The notes under the pieces: model-generated | Seen by the model: only the letters and a program-made list of their open reading frames with translations | Told to the model about the DNA's origin: nothing | Databases searched by the model: none | Translations under genes and position numbers: made by a program | Origin: Thiogranum longum | GTDB lineage: Bacteria; Pseudomonadota; Gammaproteobacteria; DSM-19610 | Length of the DNA: 64,000 nt | NCBI RefSeq assembly: GCF_004339085.1 | Contig: NZ_SMFX01000001.1 | Coordinates: forward strand, 1,806,242-1,870,241 | Reading direction: 5' to 3' | Part shown: positions 19,348-40,710 of the stretch, piece after piece | How positions within the stretch are numbered: position 1 is the stretch's first letter | Layout of the letters: every line of letters starts with the position of its first letter

Positions 19348-19484
19348 CCAGGGAACCTCTGATTAATTCGTCATTGCGAGGAACGAAGTGACGCGGCAAT
19401 CTCTAACAGACTGATTCCATTGCAGGAGATTGCCGCGCTTCGCTCGCAATGACGTGAACTCTGAATTAATCAGAGGCTCCCTGG
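19348..19484. mobile_element. MITE-like element, copy 2 (22 bp terminal inverted repeats)
   Basis: Ends 19348-19369 and 19463-19484 are inverted repeats of 22 bp with one mismatch (core CCTCTGATTAATTC). The interior is a long imperfect hairpin of the common CGTCATTGCGAG type found in many gammaproteobacterial genomes. The termini are closely related to those at 8592-8747. It sits between nhaA and sdaA on the minus strand. Confidence 0.6.
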
Positions 19485-22796: not shown

Positions 22797-22853
22797 GCAT
22801 AACGATTAAGGCCAGTGGCGGCGAAGCCGTCCACCTGGGCCGTCTTGTTATCT
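22797..22853 (-). repeat. attC site A
   Basis: A 57 bp imperfect palindrome, reading AGATAACAAG ... GTTATGC on the minus strand. Its centre (GGACGGCTTCGCCGCC) is almost identical to sites D and H. Confidence 0.8.
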
Positions 22854-22865
22854 GGCTGTACCAGA

Positions 22866-23288
22866 TCAAACGATACCAATCTGTTGCAGCATGCCCATTT
22901 GGTCCCATTGCTCCCATCGTTCGATTACCTGCTCCCCTACCACTCGATCAAAAATCAATCCTTCAAACCGCGCCCGATTGCCCGTAGGCTGAGAATCCCC
23001 GAGAGGACCTGTGTGCGTTCCAACAGCCGACCATCGTGTCGCGACTTTGTCACCCGAGATAATTTGGTCTTCTACAGTCAGCTGTAAATCCGGGAACGCC
23101 GTCAATAAACCACCGACCAAATCTTTAAATGCAGCAACCGAAAGGTCTGGCTCCGGCGCTCCCGCCATATGGATAACACAGTTTGGTGAAAAGGCCTCAT
23201 CTGCGACCGAAACATCTCCACGATTCAGACCATCAATCCATAGTTTTTCGTACTTTGTCACTTCCATATCTATTTCCTCGCTTGTCAT
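22866..23288 (-). CDS. SnoaL-like / NTF2-fold protein (cassette)
   Basis: A 140-residue protein with the pattern of SnoaL-like ester cyclases (WIDGLNRGDVSVADEAFSPNCVIH ... VEDQIISGDKVATRWSAVGTHTGP ... FDRVVGEQVIERWEQWD). The fold binds small hydrophobic molecules; many members are of unknown substrate. It lies between attC B and attC A in cassette orientation. Confidence 0.75.
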   Translation of the reverse strand: MTSEEIDMEVTKYEKLWIDGLNRGDVSVADEAFSPNCVIHMAGAPEPDLSVAAFKDLVGGLLTAFPDLQLTVEDQIISGDKVATRWSAVGTHTGPLGDSQPTGNRARFEGLIFDRVVGEQVIERWEQWDQMGMLQQIGIV

Positions 23289-23301
23289 TTATAGATAACG
23301 G

Positions 23302-23382
23302 GCTAACGGCATGCACCCCGGCGGCACCGCGAGGTTTGCGGCGTCCGAGCCCCGCAGGGGCGGACCGGGTGCATTTGCTATG
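23302..23382 (-). repeat. attC site B
   Basis: On the minus strand it has arms GCACCCGG/CGGGGTGC around a central stem (GGACGCCGC) and ends in GTTAGCC. It is similar to sites G and J. The stop codon of the short VOC gene lies in its first bases. Confidence 0.65.
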
Positions 23383-23548
23383 CATTTATATCTGACCAAA
23401 CCGCAAACTCATTGCCACTTGGCTCTGTGAAGTGAAAGCGACGACCACCTGGAAATGACCACCCGAATACCTGTTTAAAGAAGTCCTTTGTAAATTCGAT
23501 ATCGCTCGAAGGGAATTCAACGTAATTTATTTTCTCATGCTCATTCAT
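23378..23548 (-). CDS. Short VOC (glyoxalase-like) protein, apparently internally deleted (cassette)
   Basis: A 56-residue frame with ATG at 23548 and TAG at 23378. It opens INYVEFPSSDIEFTKDFFKQ and continues VFGWSFPGGRRFHFTEPSGNE. The first part matches the beginning of VOC-family proteins and the end matches the usual last strand (FxDPSGNEFAVWSD). The roughly 60 residues normally found in between are missing. It is either a deletion remnant or a mini-protein kept by the cassette. Confidence 0.55.
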   Translation of the reverse strand: MNEHEKINYVEFPSSDIEFTKDFFKQVFGWSFPGGRRFHFTEPSGNEFAVWSDINA

Positions 23549-23568
23549 CGCCTAATTTCTCTATTTAT

Positions 23569-23607
23569 GCATAACGTCCAAAATTGGTGGTACCAATGGT
23601 GTTATCA
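23569..23607 (-). repeat. Short attC-like site C
   Basis: On the minus strand it reads TGATAACACCATTGGT ... GTTATGC over 39 bp, with a central ATTGGT-ACC-ACCAAT stem. It is shorter than standard attC sites. It embeds the stop codon of the upstream gene. Confidence 0.45.
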
Positions 23608-24003
23608 AGGCGGACCTCTCGAAATATGCGCTGCAAACCCATCTCTCGCCTCTCGGGAAAGAGGCGCCAGTTCGTCAGATGGTGCACGCTCAATGCTTAT
23701 GCCCATTGCTGTAGCAACTGAGGAGACATTATCCGCCTTACGCTCAGAATCAATGAATAGCTGTTGTGGTCGTGAGCCGGCCTGCGCCTCCGCTGCAGCC
23801 AACAACTTTCTTGATTGAAACTCTGACATCTCCGATTCGGTCACTCGAACCATCTCCATGCCGAAAATCATGCCTGTTGAAAGCTCCATGATTGCCAATG
23901 CGTTAAAATCACCATCTTGCGTGGTTTGTACCGGGACATCATTGAGTTGAAGCAGCAGCCATGCTTCGTTGTTCGTGAACTGTGCAGGATCGATTGGCAA
24001 CAT
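23605..24003 (-). CDS. Unknown cassette protein
   Basis: A 132-residue protein (141 if it starts at 24030) that I do not recognise. It opens LPIDPAQFTNNEAWLLLQLN, has a beta-rich first half (VPVQTTQDGDFNALAIMELSTGMIFGMEMV) and a helical middle (MSEFQSRKLLAAAEAQ), and no signal peptide or membrane segment. It ends within attC-like site C. A two-layer alpha/beta protein seems likely, but no catalytic motif is evident. Confidence 0.55.
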   Translation of the reverse strand: MLPIDPAQFTNNEAWLLLQLNDVPVQTTQDGDFNALAIMELSTGMIFGMEMVRVTESEMSEFQSRKLLAAAEAQAGSRPQQLFIDSERKADNVSSVATAMGISIERAPSDELAPLSREARDGFAAHISRGPP

Positions 24004-24184
24004 GAGCTCCAGGTTTATGAAACCTAGCATTGTATATCTGGAAAAATGCCGTGTTACAACACGTAAAATCTCCCTATATCCCGCACCACCTCACCTGGCA
24101 CGCCCCTTAATATTTGAAGAGAACCTACGCTTTTACTACATTATTTTCAAGCGGTTGAACGATTGATGCTGGAAACCACCAGAG

Positions 24185-24412
24185 TTAGTCCTGATTGAGG
24201 CCGAGTTCCATTTGCTTCTTTTTGGTTAGCCCCAGGGAAACAAGACGGTGAGATGCTGTCAGGTAGTACACGAGTTCATCATCTTCCGTACCAGGTGCAT
24301 CATAGTGTTGTATCCACTTCATTCCACGAGAAGCGAAGTAAGGTGCCGGCCGATAACCGGGCTCGTCGCTCAAATAATGAAAATTGAGTTCGGACGTTTT
24401 AAAGATCACCAA
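24185..24412 (-). pseudogene. 5'-truncated MmcQ/YjbR-like gene
   Basis: The 75-residue frame matches the C-terminal two-thirds of MmcQ/YjbR proteins (FKTSEL ... PGYRPAPYFASRGMKWIQHY, then LTASHRLVSLGLTKKKQ). The N-terminal 40-45 residues of that family are absent. It now begins at a GTG only 6 bp after the tag stop codon. Probably a remnant, though it could be translated by coupling to tag. Confidence 0.55.
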
Positions 24413-24418
24413 GGCACA

Positions 24419-25024
24419 TCATGGCCGTTTGAATTGCTTTCTGGCATTCGCCACTTTGGTTCTGCTCACACAACCTTTTGCATGGTCATTAACCAGCCCC
24501 ATCGCCTGCATAAAGGCATAAACCGTGGTTGGGCCGACAAACTTCCAGCCCTTTTTCTTTAAATCCTTCGATAGCGCCACGGATTCTTCGCAGGTAGAGA
24601 CAGTTTGCGGTTCAGCAAGCTTTTTCCTGTCGGGTTCATAACGCCAGAAGTAAGCGGCTAATGAACCTTCCTGTTTGATCAGCTCTTTTGCGCATTTTGC
24701 ATTATTGATCGCCGCCTCGATTTTACCCCGATGACGAACAATCCCTGCATCCTTAAGCAATCTGTCGATGTCTTTCTGTGTAAAACGCGCCATTTCATCG
24801 AAGTCAAAGTTGCGAAATGCGGCCCGAAAGTTCTCGCGCTTGGCAAGGATGGTTCGCCAACTTAACCCGGATTGGAAGCTTTCCAGACACAGCTTTTCAA
24901 ACAGGTGATAATCGTCGTCTACCGGGTAGCCCCATTCCTCGTCGTGATAGTCAATGTATTCCGGCGTCGCACTGCACCAGCTGCAACGCGGTTTACCATC
25001 GGGGCCTTTTATGAGATTGCTCAT
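24419..25024 (-). CDS. tag: DNA-3-methyladenine glycosylase I
   Basis: A 201-residue enzyme that removes 3-methyladenine from alkylated DNA. The opening RCSWCSATPEYIDYHDEEWG, the pocket region FQSGLSWRTILAKRENFR and the tail VNDHAKGC are classic Tag features, including the Cys/His ligands of the structural zinc. It sits in the cassette region but has no adjacent attC. A second, unrelated methyladenine glycosylase gene lies at 33513. Confidence 0.93.
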   Translation of the reverse strand: MSNLIKGPDGKPRCSWCSATPEYIDYHDEEWGYPVDDDYHLFEKLCLESFQSGLSWRTILAKRENFRAAFRNFDFDEMARFTQKDIDRLLKDAGIVRHRGKIEAAINNAKCAKELIKQEGSLAAYFWRYEPDRKKLAEPQTVSTCEESVALSKDLKKKGWKFVGPTTVYAFMQAMGLVNDHAKGCVSRTKVANARKQFKRP

Positions 25025-25066
25025 TTAATCAATTGTGACATGAAACCGGTAAGTGGGCCTTCCTGC

Positions 25067-25318
25067 TCAGCCTGCCTTTTTAAGCTCTTCACGAAGGATT
25101 CGCCTCAGGGTCCTGGCATCCACGGCAGAACCCTTCTTCGACAGTATTTCCCTCAAGGCATCATTGATCAGCGTTTGATAACCTCGACCAAGCTTATCCC
25201 CCTTCTCACGGAACGCCTCGATGATATCGTCGTCCAGGTAGATGGTAATACGAGTTTTACCCGTGTTTTTTACAACGGGTCCTCGTTTGCCTTTACTAAA
25301 GTCGTATTCCTTTTTCAT
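25067..25318 (-). CDS. brnA: BrnA-type antitoxin
   Basis: An 83-residue protein with the CopG/ribbon-helix-helix-like BrnA pattern (KTRITIYLDDDIIEAFREKG, GRGYQTLINDALREIL). It follows brnT by 7 bp, the usual toxin-first order. It would neutralise BrnT and repress the operon. A palindrome upstream of brnT is the probable operator. Confidence 0.88.
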   Translation of the reverse strand: MKKEYDFSKGKRGPVVKNTGKTRITIYLDDDIIEAFREKGDKLGRGYQTLINDALREILSKKGSAVDARTLRRILREELKKAG

Positions 25319-25325
25319 AACTTTT

Positions 25326-25574
25326 TCACTCTGGCTTCATTGCAGCGCGCGCAGAAATAATCCGTATTAAACTGCCGCGATATGTGTAAACAACAACCAC
25401 GATTCTGCCCAGGGCATCCATTCCAATCAGGACGAACCGCGCTTCACTCGATACCCCGGGATCGGGCATAGTGATGGCGTACTGATCGTAGAAAGCGGGT
25501 TCTACGTCAGAGAAGCGGATTCCATGCTTCGTGAAATTTGACCGCGCTTTCGCAGGGTCCCATTCAAGGTCCAT
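25326..25574 (-). CDS. brnT: BrnT-type ribonuclease toxin
   Basis: An 82-residue protein with the BrnT pattern: LEWDPAKARSNFTKHGIRFSD, a central VLIGMDALGRIVVVVYTYRG and the C-terminal IRIISARAAMKPE. BrnT is a RelE-fold RNase that stops growth by cutting RNA. The family's end is usually ISARKATKxER; here the arginine/lysine-rich tail is cut short (AAMKPE), which may weaken activity. Confidence 0.85.
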   Translation of the reverse strand: MDLEWDPAKARSNFTKHGIRFSDVEPAFYDQYAITMPDPGVSSEARFVLIGMDALGRIVVVVYTYRGSLIRIISARAAMKPE

Positions 25575-25580
25575 AAATAA

Positions 25581-25596
25581 ATAGTATGCATACTAT
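25581..25596. promoter_or_regulatory. Perfect 16 bp palindrome upstream of brnT
   Basis: ATAGTATGCATACTAT lies 7 bp upstream of the brnT start codon, a position expected for BrnA autorepression. Confidence 0.5.
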
Positions 25597-25698
25597 ATGT
25601 ATATAGCCAAGCTCTCTATCCTGGCAATACTATCTCTATGGGTTCCAGACCGAGCTCACGAAGCATTTCACCGGGATGTGGCGGGTTATGCACCTTCA

Positions 25699-26145
25699 TC
25701 ACGACTCATCATGGTCAATATGAATATCGTTCGGAAACGGCTTGCCTTTGCCGGTTTCGATGGCATCTTTCAGGCTAAGCAGGAATACAGCCCACTTGGT
25801 ACTACAGTGCCCCATGAACTCCGATTGTTCTTTCCACCCCGAATGCAAAAATAACACCCAGGTCTGGTTACCCTCACGACTCAGCTGAAACGACACTTCA
25901 GTGCCCATCCATGCGCCAGGCATCTCACCCGCGTGTTTCCACCGCACGAGCGCGTCAGTTTGTAACTCTATGACCTCAAAATCGGGGCCCATACCCTCAA
26001 AACGAAATTCGATAACAGACCCGACATCGCCTGCGCCGGAAGTGTCCGTTGTCCACCATTTGGACAGGCCTTCGTTTGTTGTTAATAATTCGAATACTTT
26101 ACCGGGGGGACAGTTGATCCCGATTCTGTGGATGATGTTTGGCAT
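25699..26145 (-). CDS. SRPBCC / AHSA1-like ligand-binding protein
   Basis: A 148-residue START-like protein (IIHRIGINCPPGKVFELLTTNEGLSKWWT ... FEGMGPDFEVIELQTDALVRWKH ... KWAVFLLSLKDAIETGKG). The fold binds hydrophobic ligands; no specific one can be inferred. I take the ATG at 26145 because the family begins there; 26172 is an alternative. Confidence 0.75.
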   Translation of the reverse strand: MPNIIHRIGINCPPGKVFELLTTNEGLSKWWTTDTSGAGDVGSVIEFRFEGMGPDFEVIELQTDALVRWKHAGEMPGAWMGTEVSFQLSREGNQTWVLFLHSGWKEQSEFMGHCSTKWAVFLLSLKDAIETGKGKPFPNDIHIDHDES

Positions 26146-26202
26146 AGCCTGAATAGCCTCCCGGGGAGTCAACCAAACCGCAGGAACTCCCGCACGTACA
26201 AA

Positions 26203-26646
26203 CTAATGCTGCTTTTCTTCAATCGGCATTGCATCCAGCGGGGCGACGAACCCTATATAAAGAATACAATCATCGCCTTTCCTGCAATACGCCTTATGAG
26301 GCAATTTTGCCGGCCCGTACGCGAAATCACCTTTGTTTATAACAGCCGTTTCATGATTATCATACGTGACTTCGAGTTCGCCCGAAACCAGGACCATGCG
26401 TTCCTGTGACGTATGCGTGTGGTATGGAATACTGAAATCACCAGGCACCTTAAAGTAAATATCAACATTGTTTTGTGCGGGATCGCCTTGTAATACCGCA
26501 ATCTCGCATCCTTCCGGTATAAAGGCAGGACATGGACCCCATTGCAGCGCCGGGGCATCTGCCGAGATAACCAATGCCTGGTCCGATGCAGACAAGTTTG
26601 TGGAAACTGCCAACAGCAGAGCGCCTGTTATTAATGTTTTTTTCAT
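26203..26646 (-). CDS. Secreted cupin-domain protein
   Basis: A 147-residue protein starting at ATG 26646 behind CAGGAG. It has a Sec signal (KKTLITGALLLAVSTNLSAS) and a single cupin with the metal-binding pattern PYHTHTSQERMVLVSGE in motif 1 and AYGPAKLPHKAYC in motif 2. Two Cys pairs (CPAFIPEGC and CRKGDDC) could form disulfides in the periplasm. Function unknown. Confidence 0.72.
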   Translation of the reverse strand: MKKTLITGALLLAVSTNLSASDQALVISADAPALQWGPCPAFIPEGCEIAVLQGDPAQNNVDIYFKVPGDFSIPYHTHTSQERMVLVSGELEVTYDNHETAVINKGDFAYGPAKLPHKAYCRKGDDCILYIGFVAPLDAMPIEEKQH

Positions 26647-26659
26647 TCCGATTCTCCTG

Positions 26660-26944
26660 TTACGTTTCATTATTAAACTTTTCTCGGTCAATGCCCCAAC
26701 CAATAAGATAACCTATACCTCCAGATATAAGGACATAAATTGGTATAAAAATAAAAATTAGCCCGGCTGTGGATGATCCTGTTCTCGACTCACCCCAATC
26801 AAATATCCAGGCCAAATGGATATAACCCGATAAAGCCATACTTCCCACAAGAAAGCCGACCGCGCCCCATAGCATAGGCCTTTTTCCGGCGCTTCTGGCA
26901 CCCATATAAAGATAGGATTGTGTAAGGCCCCATTCCCTATCCAT
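26660..26944 (-). CDS. Small two-helix membrane protein (cassette)
   Basis: A 94-residue protein with two hydrophobic segments (PMLWGAVGFLVGSMALSGYI and AGLIFIFIPIYVLISGGIGYLIGW). Short polar ends face the cytosol by the positive-inside rule. It starts just after the core of attC D, which marks it as the first gene of a cassette. I know no family. Confidence 0.5.
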   Translation of the reverse strand: MDREWGLTQSYLYMGARSAGKRPMLWGAVGFLVGSMALSGYIHLAWIFDWGESRTGSSTAGLIFIFIPIYVLISGGIGYLIGWGIDREKFNNET

Positions 26945-26949
26945 GAAAC

Positions 26950-27005
26950 TTAATGATTAAGGCCAGCGGCGGCGAAGCCGTCCGTCTGGGCCGAATTGTT
27001 ATGCC
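26950..27005 (-). repeat. attC site D
   Basis: On the minus strand it reads GGCATAACAA ... with the central stem shared with sites A and H. The last bases (CATTAAG) deviate from the GTTRRRY core, so the site may be decayed. Confidence 0.65.
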
Positions 27006-27595
27006 TAAATACAACCAGCGCGTTTTTGTTGACCAGCAACATACTCAGGGAAACTAGACGCACCTTCTGGCACGGCCACGTTGGCATCGGGGTTTCTAGT
27101 AATATTTTTCTGATATGCCTCCAGACTTTTTTCATAAGGCCCGCATTCTTCTTTATGCTCTCCAAGGAAATAGTATGCGAACCCCAAATTCAGATACGCA
27201 TTAGTGAGCGCATCATATTCTCCTGTCTTTACATAGTACGCGATACCTTTTTCGAAATACCGCTTTGATATTTCGAGCCTATTATCAAAAGTTGCTTCTT
27301 TATCCATAAATCCGTTTTCTCGGTAGAACTTCTCCCATTTTCCAATTGAATCAGATCTAAAGAAGAATCCGTATGTCACATTAGCTCTGCCAAGACAGGA
27401 ATAGTCATTGGAGTCAATGCATATTTCAATAGCTTCCCGTATCAGCCTCTCTGCGGGGAGAGGCCTTTCTTGATTGTTGAACAATTCAGCGGCCCAACCT
27501 AATTTTTCTCTGGGGTCACTGGTTTCTGGAACCAGCATGGCAGCGCACCCGTGTAGCAACACGCTCAATATCGCAAACCCGGTGATTCTTATCAT
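27005..27595 (-). CDS. Lipoprotein with TPR-like helices (cassette)
   Basis: A 196-residue protein from the ATG at 27595 (GAGGGAAGC upstream). Its lipobox-like SVLLHGC gives a lipid-modified Cys. The rest is helical, with TPR-like spacing (CLGRANVTYGFFFRS, ALTNAYLNLGFAYYFLGEH) and six further Cys residues. The stop codon is next to attC D. Such repeats bind proteins; the partner is unknown. Confidence 0.6.
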   Translation of the reverse strand: MIRITGFAILSVLLHGCAAMLVPETSDPREKLGWAAELFNNQERPLPAERLIREAIEICIDSNDYSCLGRANVTYGFFFRSDSIGKWEKFYRENGFMDKEATFDNRLEISKRYFEKGIAYYVKTGEYDALTNAYLNLGFAYYFLGEHKEECGPYEKSLEAYQKNITRNPDANVAVPEGASSFPEYVAGQQKRAGCI

Positions 27596-27605
27596 GCTTC
27601 CCTCT

Positions 27606-27845
27606 TTAGGCATATCGAAAACGAAGAGTATTGAAGGTAGCTACTGGTATCCATTTATTTTTAAGCATCGCATTTCTCAGGCCGCAACGAAATGCATAAT
27701 CCATTCTTCCAAGATCCATGAGCGCGCTATAGCGGTCATTCGTAATTTTTGTAATATCAATATCGTTTGGCAACACTGTTAAATTTAAAACAGCTTCATC
27801 TAAGATTACTATCGGCTTTTCCAAAACGAGGAAAGCATTAACCAT
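27606..27845 (-). CDS. Unknown short protein, possibly a remnant (cassette)
   Basis: A 79-residue frame ending 10 bp before the lipoprotein start. Sequence such as ITNDRYSALMDLGRMDYAFR looks like the C-terminal end of a larger enzyme, and no strong ribosome site precedes it. I do not recognise the family. Confidence 0.35.
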   Translation of the reverse strand: MVNAFLVLEKPIVILDEAVLNLTVLPNDIDITKITNDRYSALMDLGRMDYAFRCGLRNAMLKNKWIPVATFNTLRFRYA

Positions 27846-27904
27846 AACAATCTCAATCGCAGTCTCATTAGCCCCCCTAATATTTCTTAGGCCGCAAACG
27901 CTCG

Positions 27905-27976
27905 AATTAACATGCTATTTTTACACAGAGCAAAGCGGCGTGTAAAAATGGTCAATGTTGAATGAATAGTTATGTG
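27905..27976 (-). repeat. attC-like site E
   Basis: On the minus strand it runs from ACATAAC to GTTAATT. The centre has perfect 9 bp arms, TTTTTACAC (27918-27926) and GTGTAAAAA (27940-27948), around a 13 nt loop. It lies between the isomerase gene and the next reading frame, where a cassette boundary is expected. Confidence 0.5.
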
Positions 27977-28037
27977 TTTTTACCTGTATGTTATTCATTG
28001 TGCATTATTCCCTAATAGATATTCAGACTGATCCAAC

Positions 28038-28370
28038 CTATCGTGCATAAGAGGCTCGATCCATGTCAACCACTTCAACCGTTATTACCGAAACAGGGAG
28101 CTCCAGCGTTTTTACTCCTGAAAGAATGACCTGGCTCATACGATTTCGGTTGTCTTCATCGCGCCCCGAACAAATCCTTGCCTGTATATGAATATAAGGA
28201 TCAGTGCCATCAGCATAGGTATGCACACCAAACGCATACGCCCGGGTTTTAATTTGACTTAACTTATATAACCCACTGTCGACAATAGCATCACGTGCAG
28301 TTTTTAAGACCGTAGTGATATCAACATCTTTCATCGCCTGTTCCGGATACTCAATTATGATATGCGGCAT
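28038..28370 (-). CDS. 5-carboxymethyl-2-hydroxymuconate isomerase-like protein (cassette)
   Basis: A 110-residue tautomerase-superfamily protein. It starts with the catalytic Pro after Met (MPHIIIEYPEQ) and has the conserved segments KTRAYAFGVHTY and RNRMSQVILSG of the CHMI family, which works in homoprotocatechuate breakdown. No other gene of that pathway is present, so the true substrate may differ. AGGAGG precedes the ATG. It lies directly after the disrupted attC. Confidence 0.75.
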   Translation of the reverse strand: MPHIIIEYPEQAMKDVDITTVLKTARDAIVDSGLYKLSQIKTRAYAFGVHTYADGTDPYIHIQARICSGRDEDNRNRMSQVILSGVKTLELPVSVITVEVVDMDRASYAR

Positions 28371-28451
28371 TTCCTACCTCCTATTTATTCATTTTTTTAC
28401 ACATAACGTTGTACACCAGCCGAGTGATCTAGCACCACTTTCGTGGACACT

Positions 28452-29306
28452 TTATGCGCACAGCTTTTCATATTTCTCCGGCGATTGGTAGTCAATCCCC
28501 GAGTGCAGGCGCTCTCGATTGTAGAACTCTATATATTCAACGATATGTGCGACGGCATCAATGTCATTCTCAAACAGCCGGTGGTGTACCAGCTCGGCTT
28601 TAAGGGTATGGAAGAAGGATTCCGCCGTTGCATTGTCGAGTGGATTGCCTTTACGACTCATGCTTCGCGTCATACCCGCCGATTCTACCAGCGCACGATA
28701 TTCATGGGCCGCATACTCGATGCCTTGATCCGAGTGGAAGATACATCCTGCCTCCGGTGTGCAACGTGACAAGGCCATGCGTAAGGCGCTTTTGGTCAAC
28801 TCTGCGTTCCGCTTCCGACTAAACGACCAGCCCACGACCTTGCGGCTAAACAGATCCAGCACCACAGCATGGTAGAGCCATCCAGATCGGGTTTTGATGT
28901 GGGTAAAGTCCCCCACCCACTGCACACCCGGTGCCTCGGGTCTCGGCTCCTGTTTTAACCGGTTGCCCGTGCAGGAGTAAAACATATGCTGACCGGGTCG
29001 CCAGGCATACAGGCCTGTCGTGGAAGCCTTGATACCCAGCTCACGCATCAGGCGGTTGATTCGCCTTCGACTGCATGGATAGTCTTTATTGATCAGCTCC
29101 TGGTGCAGTCTGGCGGCACCATAACTGCGCCGGAATCCCTGGTGCAGCTCCCTGATGAGCGACATGAGTTTTTTGTCGTACTGGCGGTGCTGACTCTCCG
29201 GACGTGACTGCCACGCATAGAAGCCGCTGGGGGAGACACCCAGCAAGTCGCATAGCCTTGTGACCTTATATTGGCCTCGGTTCTTCTCGATAAAGGCGAA
29301 CTTCAC
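28452..29306 (-). CDS. IS3-family transposase, OrfB (DDE integrase domain)
   Basis: A 284-residue catalytic part of the transposase. It has an HTH_21-like N-terminus (VTRLCDLLGVSPSGFYAW) and an integrase core with the three acidic residues in VGDFTH, FHSDQGIEY and ATAESFFHTLK. It overlaps orfA by 4 nt in the -1 frame. An A7 run near 29337 in orfA is a probable slippery site that would give an OrfAB fusion. All motifs are intact. Confidence 0.92.
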   Translation of the reverse strand: MKFAFIEKNRGQYKVTRLCDLLGVSPSGFYAWQSRPESQHRQYDKKLMSLIRELHQGFRRSYGAARLHQELINKDYPCSRRRINRLMRELGIKASTTGLYAWRPGQHMFYSCTGNRLKQEPRPEAPGVQWVGDFTHIKTRSGWLYHAVVLDLFSRKVVGWSFSRKRNAELTKSALRMALSRCTPEAGCIFHSDQGIEYAAHEYRALVESAGMTRSMSRKGNPLDNATAESFFHTLKAELVHHRLFENDIDAVAHIVEYIEFYNRERLHSGIDYQSPEKYEKLCA

Positions 29307-29674
29307 CGCCTTGCTTTCTCGAAGAACCGCCGCGCTTTTTTTAACAGGTCCAGCTCCTCCGTGCGAAGTCCCAGCGTTTTCTCCAGTTCCCGAATCCGCT
29401 TGTTGGCCTTGATCAGTTCGTCGTCCTTGGCTTTGGCCGGATCTGTACGTGTCTTACGCCGTTTCAGCGATGACTTGGGCGGTTTCATATGCCTGTTCTC
29501 TCGTAACTCACCATTTTTGTGCTCCATTCGCCACCGGTAGAGCATGACAACATGGATGCCGAGGCCTTCTGCTATATCTTTGGCTGTAACGCTTGGGTGA
29601 TTCGCTAACTTAACGGCTTGTTGTTTGAATGCAAGGGTGTATCGGTCGTAGTTACGCTTCTTCGTCTGTCCCAT
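29303..29674 (-). CDS. IS3-family transposase, OrfA
   Basis: A 123-residue DNA-binding subunit with a helix-turn-helix (FKQQAVKLANHPSVTAKDIAEGLGIHVVMLYRWR) and a leucine-zipper-like coil (LIKANKRIRELEKTLGLR). Near the end, TTA AAA AAA G provides a -1 frameshift signal into orfB. Confidence 0.9.
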   Translation of the reverse strand: MGQTKKRNYDRYTLAFKQQAVKLANHPSVTAKDIAEGLGIHVVMLYRWRMEHKNGELRENRHMKPPKSSLKRRKTRTDPAKAKDDELIKANKRIRELEKTLGLRTEELDLLKKARRFFEKARR

Positions 29675-29797
29675 TTCCGGGCCTCTCTAGTAAAACAGTG
29701 GGTGACTGTCTACTAAAGTGGTGCTAGTTCAGCTGGCTAACCCAGAGCGACGAGGAACGAGGAGCGGCGGGTTAGCCAGTCCGGGTTGACGGGATGG

Positions 29798-30517
29798 TTA
29801 GACGCCTTTTCTCGCAGCCTCAAGATTTTGATCATTCTCAACGAGCCACTTCTCTAGCTTCTCATACTCAGCTGGCCAGACATTGTTGTATTCTTCTTCA
29901 AACACGCGCATAAACTCCAATGTCAATTCTCCCAGGTTGGAGGCATACAACTCAGCCCACCTGTTTTCAAAAACCGTTTCATATTCTTTCTCGTTTACAA
30001 ACGAGTAACCAAAGCAGACGCCTTCATAATTTGGGTGGGCGCTTTCACAAAGATCTGCGTAAATTTCGAAAATCCCGGGATATTTCTTCTCGCACCATTT
30101 TTCAAGTATTGTGTGTGTAACATTAATTGCGTTGAGTTTTGTAGTCTTATTCTTTGACCCCAACATTAACTGTGATGTCATGTCAGAAAAAGCATTGAAT
30201 TCTTCTTTTCCCTCCAGTACGGCTTTCATTTTCTGGTTTAAATAGATAAGAATACCAAGCGTCTCAATGGTGCTACGGAGCAGGATTCTTGCACCAAGAA
30301 TATGCCCGGTATTTGAAAGAACCACCATTTGGTTCAATAGGTCAGTTACACGCCAAAACGTGAGTTCTCGCAAAACAATGCTGCGATATGTGGCCTTCCA
30401 TTTATGTGCTGCTGGATTTCGGGAAATCAACCCACCAAGGTCTATCTTCTTACAGAGATAAGAATTCCAAACCTCCAATACTTTAGCCACATTTTCCATA
30501 TTGCAATTACTGTGCAT
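29798..30517 (-). CDS. Unknown helical cassette protein (DUF5677-like)
   Basis: A 239-residue, all-helical protein. The segment GHILGARILLRSTIETLGILIYLNQ resembles a motif seen in DUF5677-type proteins, sometimes carried on mobile elements. There is no signal peptide. The gene starts a few bases after the core of attC G and its stop lies in attC F, so it fills one cassette. The A/T-rich sequence points to a foreign origin. The function is not established. Confidence 0.6.
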   Translation of the reverse strand: MHSNCNMENVAKVLEVWNSYLCKKIDLGGLISRNPAAHKWKATYRSIVLRELTFWRVTDLLNQMVVLSNTGHILGARILLRSTIETLGILIYLNQKMKAVLEGKEEFNAFSDMTSQLMLGSKNKTTKLNAINVTHTILEKWCEKKYPGIFEIYADLCESAHPNYEGVCFGYSFVNEKEYETVFENRWAELYASNLGELTLEFMRVFEEEYNNVWPAEYEKLEKWLVENDQNLEAARKGV

Positions 30518-30522
30518 CAGGC

Positions 30523-30602
30523 ATCTAACGTCCAGCGCCAGGGGCGGTGCGCTGTTTGCACCGTCCCAGCCGCGAAGCGGCTAACTGGGCGCTGTTGTTA
30601 TA
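30523..30602 (-). repeat. attC site G
   Basis: An 80 bp site reading TATAACAACAGCGCCC ... and ending GTTAGAT on the minus strand, a perfect GTTRRRY core. Arms GGGCGCTG/CAGCGCC and a central GCCGCTTCGCGGC stem are clear. Confidence 0.85.
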
Positions 30603-30619
30603 CCGTAACAGCACGCGCT

Positions 30620-30967
30620 CTAAGGACATGGCCACGCTTCGGCAAACGCTTGACGAACTGCCTGCCAATCAGCCCAATGAAGGTTTTCTGGATGTGCCTC
30701 CGCCCATTTTATAAATACCTGCTTCATTTGAGTGTAACTAATGGCTAGATCCATCCCATTAGGTTTCGTTGGTGGGCAGCTCATTAGTTCTTTTTTCCCG
30801 TAATCGTTCGTTGTCCGCCCATCATAAAACCCGGCTATATACCCAGAGCAATACGAACTGTCTCTAACACCTTTACAATGACTTAGGAGTGTTTCTGCTG
30901 ATCCTGCCGCAATAGTATTTAAAGGCACCATCATTCCGATAAGCAGCATCATTGGTACTCGTGACAT
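30620..30967 (-). CDS. Rap1a/Tai-like secreted protein (cassette)
   Basis: A 115-residue protein from the ATG at 30967 (CAGGAAG upstream) with a Sec signal. The mature part has the Rap1a/Tai pattern: paired cysteines (LLSHCKGV, SSYCSGYIAGFYDG, LMSCPP, AWPCP) and VFIKWAEAHPENLHW. In Serratia, Rap proteins give immunity to type VI effectors; cassette-borne relatives are untested. No effector gene is near. Confidence 0.65.
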   Translation of the reverse strand: MSRVPMMLLIGMMVPLNTIAAGSAETLLSHCKGVRDSSYCSGYIAGFYDGRTTNDYGKKELMSCPPTKPNGMDLAISYTQMKQVFIKWAEAHPENLHWADWQAVRQAFAEAWPCP

Positions 30968-30993
30968 TGAATTCTTCCTGTATCTATTAAGCG

Positions 30994-31050
30994 GCATAAC
31001 GTTTAAGGCCAGTGGCGGCGAAGCCGTCCAACTGGGCCGCATTGTTATGA
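30994..31050 (-). repeat. attC site H
   Basis: A 57 bp site ending GTTATGC on the minus strand, differing from site A at only about 4 of 51 aligned positions. Confidence 0.85.
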
Positions 31051-31632
31051 GCTTTCCGATTCATAATTCAATATGCGCTTTGTTATTAGTGGTTGCGGGT
31101 CGTCATTTCCAATAGTATTTATGGTGTCCAGCTTTTTATCGAGAGCTACCGATGCGAACGCTAGTGATAGCCTAAAATCGAGAGGCGCACCAGAAATATC
31201 GTACTCCTCACTAGCTTTCTCAGACACATCTTTATATATGGGGAAATCCTTCAACGGTGAGCATAATTCACGAACGCGATCTTTATGAGCCCCTGAAGTT
31301 AAATCGCAACCCGATACCTCATGAGCAAAGTTGTTCCTAATTCTTCTAACGAGGTGTAGTGTTCTTGAAAGCTGACTATCGATTAAGCCCAGCCTAAAAC
31401 AAAGGTTAATTTTAGAACTATAGGTCGACAATGGAGAGTCGCCATCTAGAAGCTCATCTTTACCTGTTGGGCACGGAGTAAGATATCTCTCCAATATTTG
31501 GTATAGCAGTAAATCTAGTTTCGCAGCACCCAGCACCACGGCAGCCCTATCAGATTCTGCCATGAATTCTTCAAAGAAAGATTTCCAGTTTTCCTTCCCT
31601 AAGTGATGGCTCTTATTTTTACTCATATCCAT
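31045..31632 (-). CDS. MltR/HEPN-like protein (cassette)
   Basis: A 195-residue protein similar to the mannitol-repressor family in its core (ESDRAAVVLGAAKLDLLLYQI ... SKINLCFRLGLIDSQLSRTLHLVRRIRNNFAHE). The RxxxxFAH-like end of this motif is the hallmark of HEPN-type folds. Mannitol genes are absent, so a metabolic role is unlikely. It may be a nucleic-acid-acting or defence protein, which remains inference. Confidence 0.65.
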   Translation of the reverse strand: MDMSKNKSHHLGKENWKSFFEEFMAESDRAAVVLGAAKLDLLLYQILERYLTPCPTGKDELLDGDSPLSTYSSKINLCFRLGLIDSQLSRTLHLVRRIRNNFAHEVSGCDLTSGAHKDRVRELCSPLKDFPIYKDVSEKASEEYDISGAPLDFRLSLAFASVALDKKLDTINTIGNDDPQPLITKRILNYESESS

Positions 31633-31638
31633 TCCCGC

Positions 31639-31702
31639 TCATAACGTTTAAGCCCAGCTGCAGCCTGCGAAGCTGGCTGTCAGCTGGGGAACATGGTTAG
31701 GC
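31639..31702 (-). repeat. attC site I
   Basis: A 64 bp site reading GCCTAACCAT ... ending GTTATGA on the minus strand, with CCCAGCTG/CAGCTGGG arms and a GCAGGCT-type inner stem. Confidence 0.75.
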
Positions 31703-31706
31703 ATTC

Positions 31707-32384
31707 TTACCTCAGCGCTGATTGTGGTGACCATGAATTAGCATCCTGCTCTGCTTTCTTATAGTCTTCTGTAGATAATGTCTGTTTGCAGTACTTAACT
31801 GTACCCGCAGCTTGTTCCTTGACTCTACCATGCTTGGAATATTTCAATGCTCTTATTGCCCACATACAGCCTTTAACCATATCTGCTTGGCCTAACTGGC
31901 CAGATCCGTACATTTGACCTAAATTGAACATTGACTCAGCCCAGCCCAACTCCGCAGCACGTAAGTACAATGCATAACCCTTTTGCCTGTCTTTGGGGAC
32001 ACCTAAGCCTAGATCATGAAGGTAGCCGAGATTATTAGTTGCTAATGCATGATTTTGTTTTGCGGCTTTTTCGTACCAAATTATTGCTTCTTCATATTGC
32101 TTGTCTGCCTGGTACCCACTTCCTAAGCTATTCTGCGCTTCTGCATGACCTGCCTCCGCGGCTTTCCGGTACCATTTCTTGGCCTCATTTCCATCACTAC
32201 GAACACCCTTACCATAATCGTAAGCAGCACCCAGCTTAAATTGGGCTTCTGTATCCCCCGATTCGGCTTTTGCGATAAGCTTTTGTACTTCAGGGTCTGG
32301 CTGCGTTTGTTGTGAAGCACAACCAATCAAAAGCCCCCCAAGGATTAGCATTCCAATAAAGTACTGCGGTACTACTCTCTGCAT
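31707..32384 (-). CDS. Sel1-repeat lipoprotein (cassette)
   Basis: A 225-residue protein from the ATG at 32384 (GGGGA five bases upstream). The lipobox LLIGC is followed by about four Sel1-type repeats (AQFKLGAAYDYGKGVRSDG, AQNSLGSGYQADKQYEEAI, ATNNLGYLHDLGLGVPKD, SMFNLGQMYGSGQ). These form a curved protein-binding scaffold, probably anchored in a membrane facing the periplasm. It occupies one cassette between attC J and attC I. Confidence 0.8.
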   Translation of the reverse strand: MQRVVPQYFIGMLILGGLLIGCASQQTQPDPEVQKLIAKAESGDTEAQFKLGAAYDYGKGVRSDGNEAKKWYRKAAEAGHAEAQNSLGSGYQADKQYEEAIIWYEKAAKQNHALATNNLGYLHDLGLGVPKDRQKGYALYLRAAELGWAESMFNLGQMYGSGQLGQADMVKGCMWAIRALKYSKHGRVKEQAAGTVKYCKQTLSTEDYKKAEQDANSWSPQSALR

Positions 32385-32407
32385 ATTATTCCCCATTTAG
32401 CATGAAT

Positions 32408-32490
32408 GCCTAACGGCCTGCACCAGCGGCGCCGCGCTGTTTGCGGCGTCCGAGCCGCAAAGCGGCGAACTGGGTGCGGTGGTTATGTGG
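32408..32490 (-). repeat. attC site J
   Basis: An 83 bp site starting CACATAACC and ending GTTAGGC on the minus strand, a perfect GTTRRRY core, with long GC-rich arms. It is similar to sites B and G. Confidence 0.85.
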
Positions 32491-32860
32491 CATATGCAGC
32501 AGGAATACCATAAAGCACCGCCCCAGAGGAAAACACAAGAAAAAATACGACAGACCCCCAATGTTTTAGTTTAAAAAATACGATTTGCCCAATTGCCCTA
32601 AACAACCAAAACAGTGCGATAAGAACAAGGAGGCTATGGCCCAATGCTGATTCCATTAACTCCTTAGTATGTAACAGAGAGATATAGCCAAATATGACGA
32701 ATGTGAAAATAAGGCTTACGTTCATAACCTGCATTATTGCCCTATTTAAAAAAGACAATGTCCTAAGGTCTTCCCCCCAATTAAAGATACGCCAAAACAT
32801 GAGATGGAAAATTACGAAACCGAAACTATAGATACCGCCGGCCTTAATTAGTGCATCCAT
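32483..32860 (-). CDS. Four-helix membrane protein (cassette)
   Basis: A 125-residue protein with about four hydrophobic segments (GGIYSFGFVIFHLMFWRIF, VMNVSLIFTFVIFGYISLL, LGHSLLVLIALFWLFRAI, GSVVFFLVFSSGAVLYGI). A His in the first and a His in the third segment are notable. No family recognised. It starts after the core of attC K, and its stop is in attC J. Confidence 0.6.
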   Translation of the reverse strand: MDALIKAGGIYSFGFVIFHLMFWRIFNWGEDLRTLSFLNRAIMQVMNVSLIFTFVIFGYISLLHTKELMESALGHSLLVLIALFWLFRAIGQIVFFKLKHWGSVVFFLVFSSGAVLYGIPAAYAT

Positions 32861-32877
32861 CACTCAGTGTCCTTGCC

Positions 32878-32940
32878 ACATAACGGTGTAACTCAGCTGC
32901 ACGTGCGAAGCACGTGTCTGCTGTAGTGCGTTGTTCTACG
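32878..32940 (-). repeat. attC site K (last clear site)
   Basis: A 63 bp site reading CGTAGAACAAC ... GTTATGT on the minus strand, with a perfect ACGTGC-TTC-GCACGT hairpin. Confidence 0.75.
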
Positions 32941-33005
32941 GCAACCCTCTGAAGTATCAGTTTCCGCTGATCATAAAATGCGGACTGACCGGATGAACAC
33001 TTAGG

Positions 33006-33073
33006 TAAGCGAAGGCAGAAAGCGCTGTCTTTTCCAAGCACGCTTGAAACGCAGCGCTTTCTGCCTTCGCTTA
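33006..33073. repeat. 22 bp perfect inverted repeat
   Basis: Arms at 33006-33027 and 33052-33073 are exact complements, giving a strong hairpin. A T7 run follows about 10 nt after the right arm, so it might terminate plus-strand transcription; it could also be a recombination site. Confidence 0.6.
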
Positions 33074-33156
33074 ATATCATGTTTTTTTCATCCTGTCTGT
33101 CCGCTTTTTCTGTTCAGCTTTATAAGAAATTTCGGTTTGACCGCTAGAACTATAGT

Positions 33157-33385
33157 TAGACGGCGTATGCCGTATATCCGGAAACACGCGGCGCGGGCCA
33201 TATAGCTCCCCCAGTCGGGTGGCTATACGGCGATTGCCGTCTATCATGACTTTTTTGCGCAAAATGAAATCCCCCTAACCTACTGTTACTTTTATACAAA
33301 TTAACGGCAGGTTTCAAGCGGTAATAGTAGACGGCGTGCGCCGTGATATCGGGAATTTGGGTGGATAGGCGGCGTGTGCCGTCTA
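33157..33385. repeat. Four dispersed copies of a 20 bp palindrome
   Basis: The copies start at 33157, 33224, 33328 and 33366 and share ACGGCG...GCCGT. Start-to-start spacings are 67, 104 and 38 bp, so this is not a regular array. Confidence 0.55.
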
Positions 33386-33512
33386 ATACGTCCATTTTTT
33401 GTTGCAAACGCGGCGCTGCAACTCCGTGATAACCCTGTGTAAAGCGGACAACGCCTGTATCCGGAATGCTGCTGTATGGATCAACAGTAGCTACCTGAAG
33501 GCGCGTTACTGT

Positions 33513-34114
33513 CTAGTCCACTGCCGCCCAGATATACCAGCTCGCCACCGTCCGGTATGGGCGCCAGGCTTCCGCCAGTTCAATGTAGGTATCGTGCGGG
33601 ACATCCTCCCCCAACCCCCAATGCACCCGCATGGACTTCCTTAACGCAAGATCCCCCACCGGCAACACATCCATCCGGCCCAGTGAAAACATTAACAACA
33701 TCTCGGCGGTCCATTGCCCGATACCGGGCAGGTCCATCAGTCGTTCTGCCACGCGTTCATCATCCAGTGTATCGAGACCATGCAGGTCCAGTTCGTCCTG
33801 GCGCACGCGGCGTGCGATTTCGCGGATGTAACGTATCTTCGCGCCGCTCAGGCCGCAACGTCGCAGGGTGGTTTCGCGTACGCGGTAAAAATGTTGGGGA
33901 TGAAACACGTCACTGTCAAAGTGTTTGAGCAGGCGGCCTTCGATGCTGCGCGCGGCCTTGACGGAGAGTTGCTGGTTGACGATGGCCCACACCAGGGTGT
34001 GGAAGCGCGGGTGTGGGTCGCGTTGCAGGGTGCAGGGGCCGTGCTGTTCGATCATGCGGGCGAGGACCGGGTCAGTTTTTGCCAGGTAGCGTTCGGCCTG
34101 GCGCAGTGCTTTTT

Positions 34115-34118
<4 letters not shown>
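33513..34118 (-). CDS. AlkA-like DNA-3-methyladenine glycosylase II (HhH-GPD)
   Basis: A 201-residue base-excision repair enzyme with HhH-GPD architecture: the early FHTLVWAIVNQQLSVKAARSI, the hairpin LPGIGQWTAEMLLMF and the catalytic Asp in VLPVGDLALRKSM. It lacks the N-terminal Ada/AlkA beta domain, as the short bacterial forms do. It starts at GTG 34118, which overlaps the stop of the upstream 51-residue peptide by 4 nt, making it the last gene of a ligA-led operon. Confidence 0.9.
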
Positions 34119-37028
<2,910 letters not shown>

Positions 37029-40625: not shown

Positions 40626-40710
40626 CCCGTCATTGCGAGCGTAGCGAAGCAATCTCCCACAGCCTCGCACCCGATCAAACAGATTGCTTCGCTGCGCTCG
40701 CAATGACGGG
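40626..40710. repeat. REP-like hairpin element
   Basis: Arms of 30 bp (40626-40655 and 40681-40710) pair with one mismatch and start CCCGTCATTGCGAGCG. The same motif forms the interior of the element at 19348-19484, but the CTCTGATTAAT termini are absent here. Confidence 0.7.

Follow-up and report, generated by a model that had tools for sequence, protein, structure and literature searches.

A putative palindromic attI platform at the edge of an integrase-less cassette array in Thiogranum longum

We analyzed a stretch of 64,000 nucleotides (the window), i.e., bases 1806242-1870241 of the single-contig genome of Thiogranum longum (G000; 2.92 Mb, rated 100% complete). The window carries an array of gene cassettes on the minus strand, and the palindromes under study lie at the 5' side of this array, the place of attI and intI in a complete integron. 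In the rest of the array, which has no integrase (22797-32488, minus strand), an attC model (R3) matched at 22797, 23301 (weakly), 26948, 30523, 30994, 31639 and 32408. Together with the attC of the first cassette, at 32878, all eight R3 matches listed in the window are on the minus strand with the platform at their 5' side; it should be noted that six of the eight, including the one at 32878, were training rows of R3, the exceptions being 30994 and 23301. The window thus holds eight attC matches (one of them weak) and no intI, and its array resembles in this respect a CALIN, i.e., a cluster of attC sites (at least two) lacking an integrase. Such clusters are presented as proposed degraded integrons in the available part of PMC9024848, and as mobilisable in trans in that of PMC12444791. 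Within the array, an IS3-like transposase (28443-29674, with rve domains in the ORF 28452-29306) is apparently inserted inside an attC, the halves of which, read by eye, flank it around 28400-28440 and 29725-29803.

The chromosomal flank begins with a gene for an AlkA-like glycosylase (33513-34118, minus strand; Pfam HhH-GPD, 52.7 bits), which is present in 17 of 20 genomes of the family, followed by ligA (34267-36321, minus strand; Pfam DNA_ligase_aden, 336 bits), 71% identical to the gene beside one platform of a relative (G002 C39). One of the array cassettes also carries a glycosylase gene, for a methyladenine glycosylase (24419-25024; Pfam Adenine_glyco, 243 bits), the platform-adjoining chromosomal gene encoding a different base-excision glycosylase (HhH-GPD). 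In the stretch between array and flank, 32941-33512, the only overlapping ORFs of at least 80 amino acids are 33156-33407 (minus strand) and 33399-33644 (plus strand). Both are candidate ORFs and no gene is evident, in line with the original prediction that the repeats of this stretch are not explained by any gene.

The first gene cassette (32878-33147, minus strand), which is putatively non-coding, runs from its attC at the left end (32878-32945, minus strand; R3 score of 50.2 bits at 32878-32939, a training row) up to an AAC triplet at 33148-33150. Cassettes that adjoin the platform in G010 and G002 align with it over its entire length, and it is 73% identical between G000 and G002. Its hairpin (33006-33073; fold z of -8.8) has perfect arms of 22 bp, 33006-33027 and 33052-33073 (27 bp at 93%), and sits within an imperfect palindrome of 153 bp (32966-33118). 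With loops of up to 40 allowed, no longer perfect inverted repeat exists in 32941-33512, and 100 dinucleotide shuffles of the same stretch gave 9 bp at most. Across three sequences, seven of the 42 predicted hairpin pairs have paired changes that keep the pair; therefore, the stem is apparently maintained. The hairpin is a candidate promoter, terminator or DNA hairpin. The cassette is similar to known ORF-less gene cassettes in being putatively non-coding with an attC of its own; however, it differs from them in the palindrome of ~150 bp and the conserved hairpin, and in its position, which is next to the platform in each of the three genomes in which we found it. A search for the hairpin in 369 genomes of the class, under strict filters, returned G000, G002 and one match in G302, around which no platform was seen by eye; this result does not name G010, which carries the hairpin.

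Next to the first cassette lies the putative attI platform (33148-33415; minus strand, in the cassette orientation), which contains four palindromic units. Unit 1 (33157-33176) has the form TAGACGGC-GTAT-GCCGTATA and scores 33.3 bits with a model of the unit (R1); units 2 (33224-33243), 3 (33328-33347) and 4 (33366-33385) score 28.6, 24.9 and 33.0 bits, respectively, all four being training rows of R1. The copies are direct, and the consensus of 26 units is TAGACGGCGTGCGCCGTATAACA. When similar 17-mers (up to three mismatches) were grouped, the largest family in 32941-33512 had four copies, compared to at most two in 500 shuffles. Conversely, the number of dyads in 33131-33470 was three, with a mean of 1.3 and a maximum of five in 200 shuffles; the single palindromes are thus unremarkable, and it is their repetition and conservation that count. 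Both the 22-bp inverted repeat and the four palindromes of the original prediction are therefore real and exceed shuffled sequence, and they belong to different features. As read from the sequence, the inverted repeat is a separate feature, the core of the non-coding first cassette to the left of 33148; the palindromes belong to the adjacent platform at 33148-33415, and a LexA-like box lies beyond.

A second copy of the platform in G000 (L014), 74% identical to the first over 272 columns, forms the 5' edge of another intI-less array, its nearest attC being at L014:7874. The AAC triplet at 33148-33150, which adjoins the first cassette, is the presumed junction of the window platform; the junction of the second copy is GAC, not AAC, and the tails of the units in G000 have lost AAC. 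When the platform module was used as a blastn query against the 20 family genomes, E values below 0.001 were obtained for these two copies only. A pattern of 20 bases gave 13 matches in the same genomes, compared to six for the reversed control; its sole match in G000 (at 2092226) is away from the platforms, and no platform was seen by eye at the matches in G001 C3, G001 C179 and G010 C20. Distant blastn returned no plasmid or phage relatives, and one degenerate pattern run over species genomes, from which records near the own genome may be excluded, had no match.

The LexA-box-like site, CTGT-N8-ACAG, is at 33472-33487, and 15 of its 16 bases are identical to the box at L038:7204 that precedes the intact intI of G000. 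It is the single occurrence of this motif in the window, where about one is expected by chance. LexA boxes are frequent in intI promoters, according to the available part of PMC3108266, and in the relatives analyzed here they are located just upstream of intI. We infer from this sequence likeness that 33472-33487 may be a remnant of a lost intI promoter. No LexA-like box was found near the second platform of G000; one without intI was found at G008 C69, and an imperfect one, by eye, at G003 C91.

No intI follows the platform in the window, and tblastn revealed no intI remnant at the platform edge; the matches that integrase ORFs gave in other parts of the window are short and seem spurious. 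The sole integrase gene of G000 above the TIGR02249 cut-off is at 878 kb, away from the window; no clear unit is present in its attI region, where R1 scores 13.2 bits at best. It should be noted that the stretch 24020-24086 of the window array is 85% identical to a palindrome near this intact intI (L038:7399-7465), which may reflect exchange between the two integrons. Another part of the same locus, L038:758-844, is matched by the window stretches 19427-19457 and 40627-40707, and an inverted-repeat element of the GTCATTGCGAGG type was seen by eye at 19350-19480.

Using TIGR02249 with E <=1e-60, we found 13 integrase genes in 12 of the 20 family genomes. Seven of these (G003, G004, G005, G008, G009a, G015 and G016; 67-78% identical among themselves) form a clade linked to the palindromes, and four (G000, G002, G009b and G018) form another clade; the integrases of G006 and G019, the upstream DNA of which looks coding, were left out. 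The integrase of G000 itself is 52-59% identical to the palindrome-linked clade and 63-76% identical to those of G002, G018 and G009b. All seven loci of the palindrome-linked clade, one of them weakly, have palindromes of the window type, in the same order and with the same spacing, between the array and the LexA box and intI; thus, the palindromes of these relatives do lie between intI and the first cassette. R1 scores six of the seven loci at E <0.03; five of these six were training rows, at which the score is circular, and G008 was not. G016 has no R1 match at E <=1, and its layout is visible in the alignment only. A contig end truncates the G005 locus, of which units 3 and 4 are seen, unit 1 is disrupted in G008, and G009b, from the other clade, has one unit-like stretch (an R1 training row).

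We also found 14 platforms without intI in nine of the 20 genomes. An attC is present beside eight of them, i.e., the window platform, the second platform of G000, G002 C39, G007, G008 C69, C206 and C136, and G010 C59. No attC was found on the visible array side of the other six (G002 C52, G003 C91, G004 C137, G005 C124, G005 C219 and G011 C182), where this side ends with the contig after about 5 to 530 bp, or about 1.6 kb in G005 C124. An additional degenerate intI-less platform, at G010 C57, was not counted among the 14. On the side expected to carry intI, the flank of each of the 14 has no integrase match (TIGR02249; flank ORFs read), and tblastn with eleven integrase ORFs against 13 of the loci (all except C136) revealed no integrase remnant at the edges, apart from a translated promoter stretch in L123. 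Outside the training set, R1 reached at least 22 bits at nine loci among the matches listed in the 20 genomes. Six of them are full platforms (G002 C39 and C52, G003 C91, G007, and G008 C206 and C136), of which G003 C91 almost duplicates a training locus; one is the degenerate G010 C57, and two, in G018 C58 and G012 C513, are inside long ORFs and chance-like. The starts of the two platform contigs of G002 (L125:1-104 and L126:2-105) are 98% identical over 104 bp, which is perhaps a common cassette or an assembly break.

A platform alignment was built for 18 of the 21 platforms (the G005 intI locus, G005 C219 and G008 C136 were left out). Unit 1 is kept in 17 of the 18. In 15 of these, units 1 and 4 are 208-213 bp apart, and the distance is 219 bp in G002 C39 and 198 bp in G005 C124, in an alignment that tends to equalise such distances. 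The constancy of this distance despite divergence argues for a fixed protein-DNA assembly.

The layout of the window edge (array, AAC junction, four spaced units and LexA-like box) recurs between the array and intI of the relatives, and for this reason we consider it probable that a chromosomal integron, the intI of which is missing and was most likely lost, has its attI platform at 33148-33415. This agrees with one of the readings offered in the original prediction, an attI-like platform. In the available part of PMC4792948, IntI joins a folded attC strand to a duplex attI at AAC/GTT. By analogy, the integrase would hold the duplex platform and join it, at AAC/GTT, to the attC that an incoming cassette presents in folded form. 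Each dyad of ~20-24 bp would offer two binding sites in inverted orientation, either to the integrase or to an accessory protein, and would have a role similar to that of the direct repeats next to the attI1 core. Protein-binding sites had also been predicted originally, and they are compatible with the attI platform reading. Covariation among the 26 units did not exceed that of shuffles; the dyad itself is thus unproven as a selected feature, and RNA structure receives no support from this result, so that protein-binding dyads are the likeliest interpretation of the palindromes. In G002, both arms of the dyad have changed together compared to the other genus (GCGGGCG..CGCCCG, by eye), in keeping with recognition by a dimer.

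The proposed platform is similar to the attI1 site of class 1 integrons in being a duplex insertion site by the first cassette, with an AAC/GTT junction and repeats beside the core. However, attI1 is described in the available part of PMC4792948 as a site of about 65 bp with two direct repeats beside the core, whereas the platform has four (weakly, five) palindromic dyads of 20-24 bp over about 240 bp, with fixed spacing, and no adjoining intI in the window. In contrast to a CALIN, the 5' edge of the window array retains a LexA-like box and a platform that is recognisable as attI-type. The available part of PMC9024848 describes attI outside class 1 integrons as poorly known, and IntegronFinder as not detecting it there. 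For Xanthomonas, the available part of PMC12444791 already describes or states both the occurrence of integrase-less arrays at conserved loci and the use of such arrays in trans; our finding is therefore a variant of what is known. No literature match, by title or start of abstract among the matches listed, was found for palindromic, orphan or multiple attI, CALIN with attI, in-trans use or integrons of Thiogranum.

The same palindromes might instead be operators, bound by a transcription factor of the integrase or cassette promoter and having no part in recombination. Near-perfect dyads of 20 bp, in several copies between two expected promoters, would suit such a role, and the joint change of both arms in G002 is what a dimeric regulator would require. 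However, the units persist at the 14 platforms without intI, so that control of intI alone would be insufficient to keep them, and a sigma-70 consensus scan revealed no promoter in 32850-33520. We regard operators as rather unlikely, although they are the best of the alternatives.

A structured RNA from the platform, either a cis-regulator or a small RNA, was suggested by the original prediction and by the minus-strand fold of 33150-33420, which is better than that of shuffles (z of -3.8). The homologous second copy, however, has a z of only -1.0, and the 26 units show no covariation beyond shuffles, nor is there any Rfam family at gathering score in the window; structured RNA is very improbable for the palindromes, and the stem with paired changes is that of the first-cassette hairpin, a different feature. 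Degenerate attC sites were another of the original suggestions; a cluster of them, or of cassette remnants, would be palindromic and would adjoin a real attC, as the units do, and the unit tails GCATAAC/GTATAAC are like attC core sites. Yet 33149-33415 gave no R3 match at E <=0.1, although the model detects attC sites in the array, and the units were not seen to contain the CAG..CTG boxes that the aligned attC set displays. Degenerate attC sites with the R''/L''/L'/R' organization were accordingly rejected for the platform, and we give this possibility very little credence. Least credible of all are REP/BIME-type elements lying at an array edge by chance, since these repeated imperfect palindromes of intergenic DNA, despite their resemblance to REPs, are not scattered across G000, as the original prediction had asked, but occupy two places only by blastn and pattern (the third blastn match has 17 bases and E of 1.66; R1 matches of at least 21.8 bits, among those listed for 150 of 613 candidates scored, are confined to the two platforms, the best elsewhere having 19.1 bits), both at array edges, with an order and spacing of units conserved across genera.

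Returning to the attI platform reading, some of the intI-less platforms share their chromosomal flanks. Next to the window platform are alkA and then ligA; ligA also follows the G002 C39 platform, which has a matching first cassette. The gene adjoining the G005 C219 and G011 C182 platforms is, as we assume from the start of its protein, glmS; an intI-less platform is thus located directly beside it in two species (L132 and L133). The target site of Tn7 lies in the neighbourhood of glmS. G008 C69, without intI, adjoins a molybdopterin oxidoreductase gene that is 68% identical to the gene beside the intI of G000; hence, at least one intI-less platform is at a place where another species has intI. 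These shared flanks make some of the intI-less platforms look old and vertically inherited.

The four genomes G003, G004, G005 and G008 each have one intI-bearing platform and from one to three without intI, and one integrase may serve several platforms in trans there. In G000, an integrase of the palindrome-linked clade was not found, the unit tails are without AAC and the second junction is GAC; for these reasons its platforms, judged by sequence, are probably relics, or at best poor acceptors. Each of the four most similar platform pairs (94, 88, 79 and 71% identity) comes from a single genome, and the four correspond to the four starred forks in the tree; the maximum among 146 between-genome pairs is 58%, although identities of this kind depend on the alignment of very divergent DNA. 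The remaining three same-genome pairs have 57, 53 and 48%. At the common ligA locus of G000 and G002, the platforms are 47% identical, close to the 45% of shuffled sequences, whereas the first cassettes are conserved at the level given above; the two platforms within G002 are 79% identical, and those within G000 were compared above. The likeness within genomes hints at concerted evolution, or at late duplication after the split combined with very fast evolution. We suggest, as a tentative and rather doubtful possibility, a distributed integron with several intI-less attI platforms per genome, one integrase acting in trans and concerted evolution that changes the palindromes together. A recognisable multi-palindrome attI could distinguish arrays that grew on a genuine platform from those seeded by chance elsewhere, could show where integrase genes were lost, and could offer a test of one integrase feeding several insertion sites per chromosome.

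We also compared 80 named intI loci. Two of them match contigs of the family in length (L136, G016 C77, and L137, G003 C158), with no R1 match in L136 and 24.7 bits in L137. Among the other 78, the best R1 score was 18.1 bits, at a place in L148 that is not upstream of intI; weak matches of 15.6-17.7 bits within 500 bp upstream of intI in L140, L143, L160 and L177 are only suggestive of units in other lineages. A count of dyads in the DNA preceding intI, made for 77 of the 80 loci, gave 160 versus 95.2 in shuffles, a comparison with no intergenic control. The multi-palindrome attI may be wider than the family. In L160 and L202, repeated palindromes of their own sequence were seen by eye in the 420 bases before intI.
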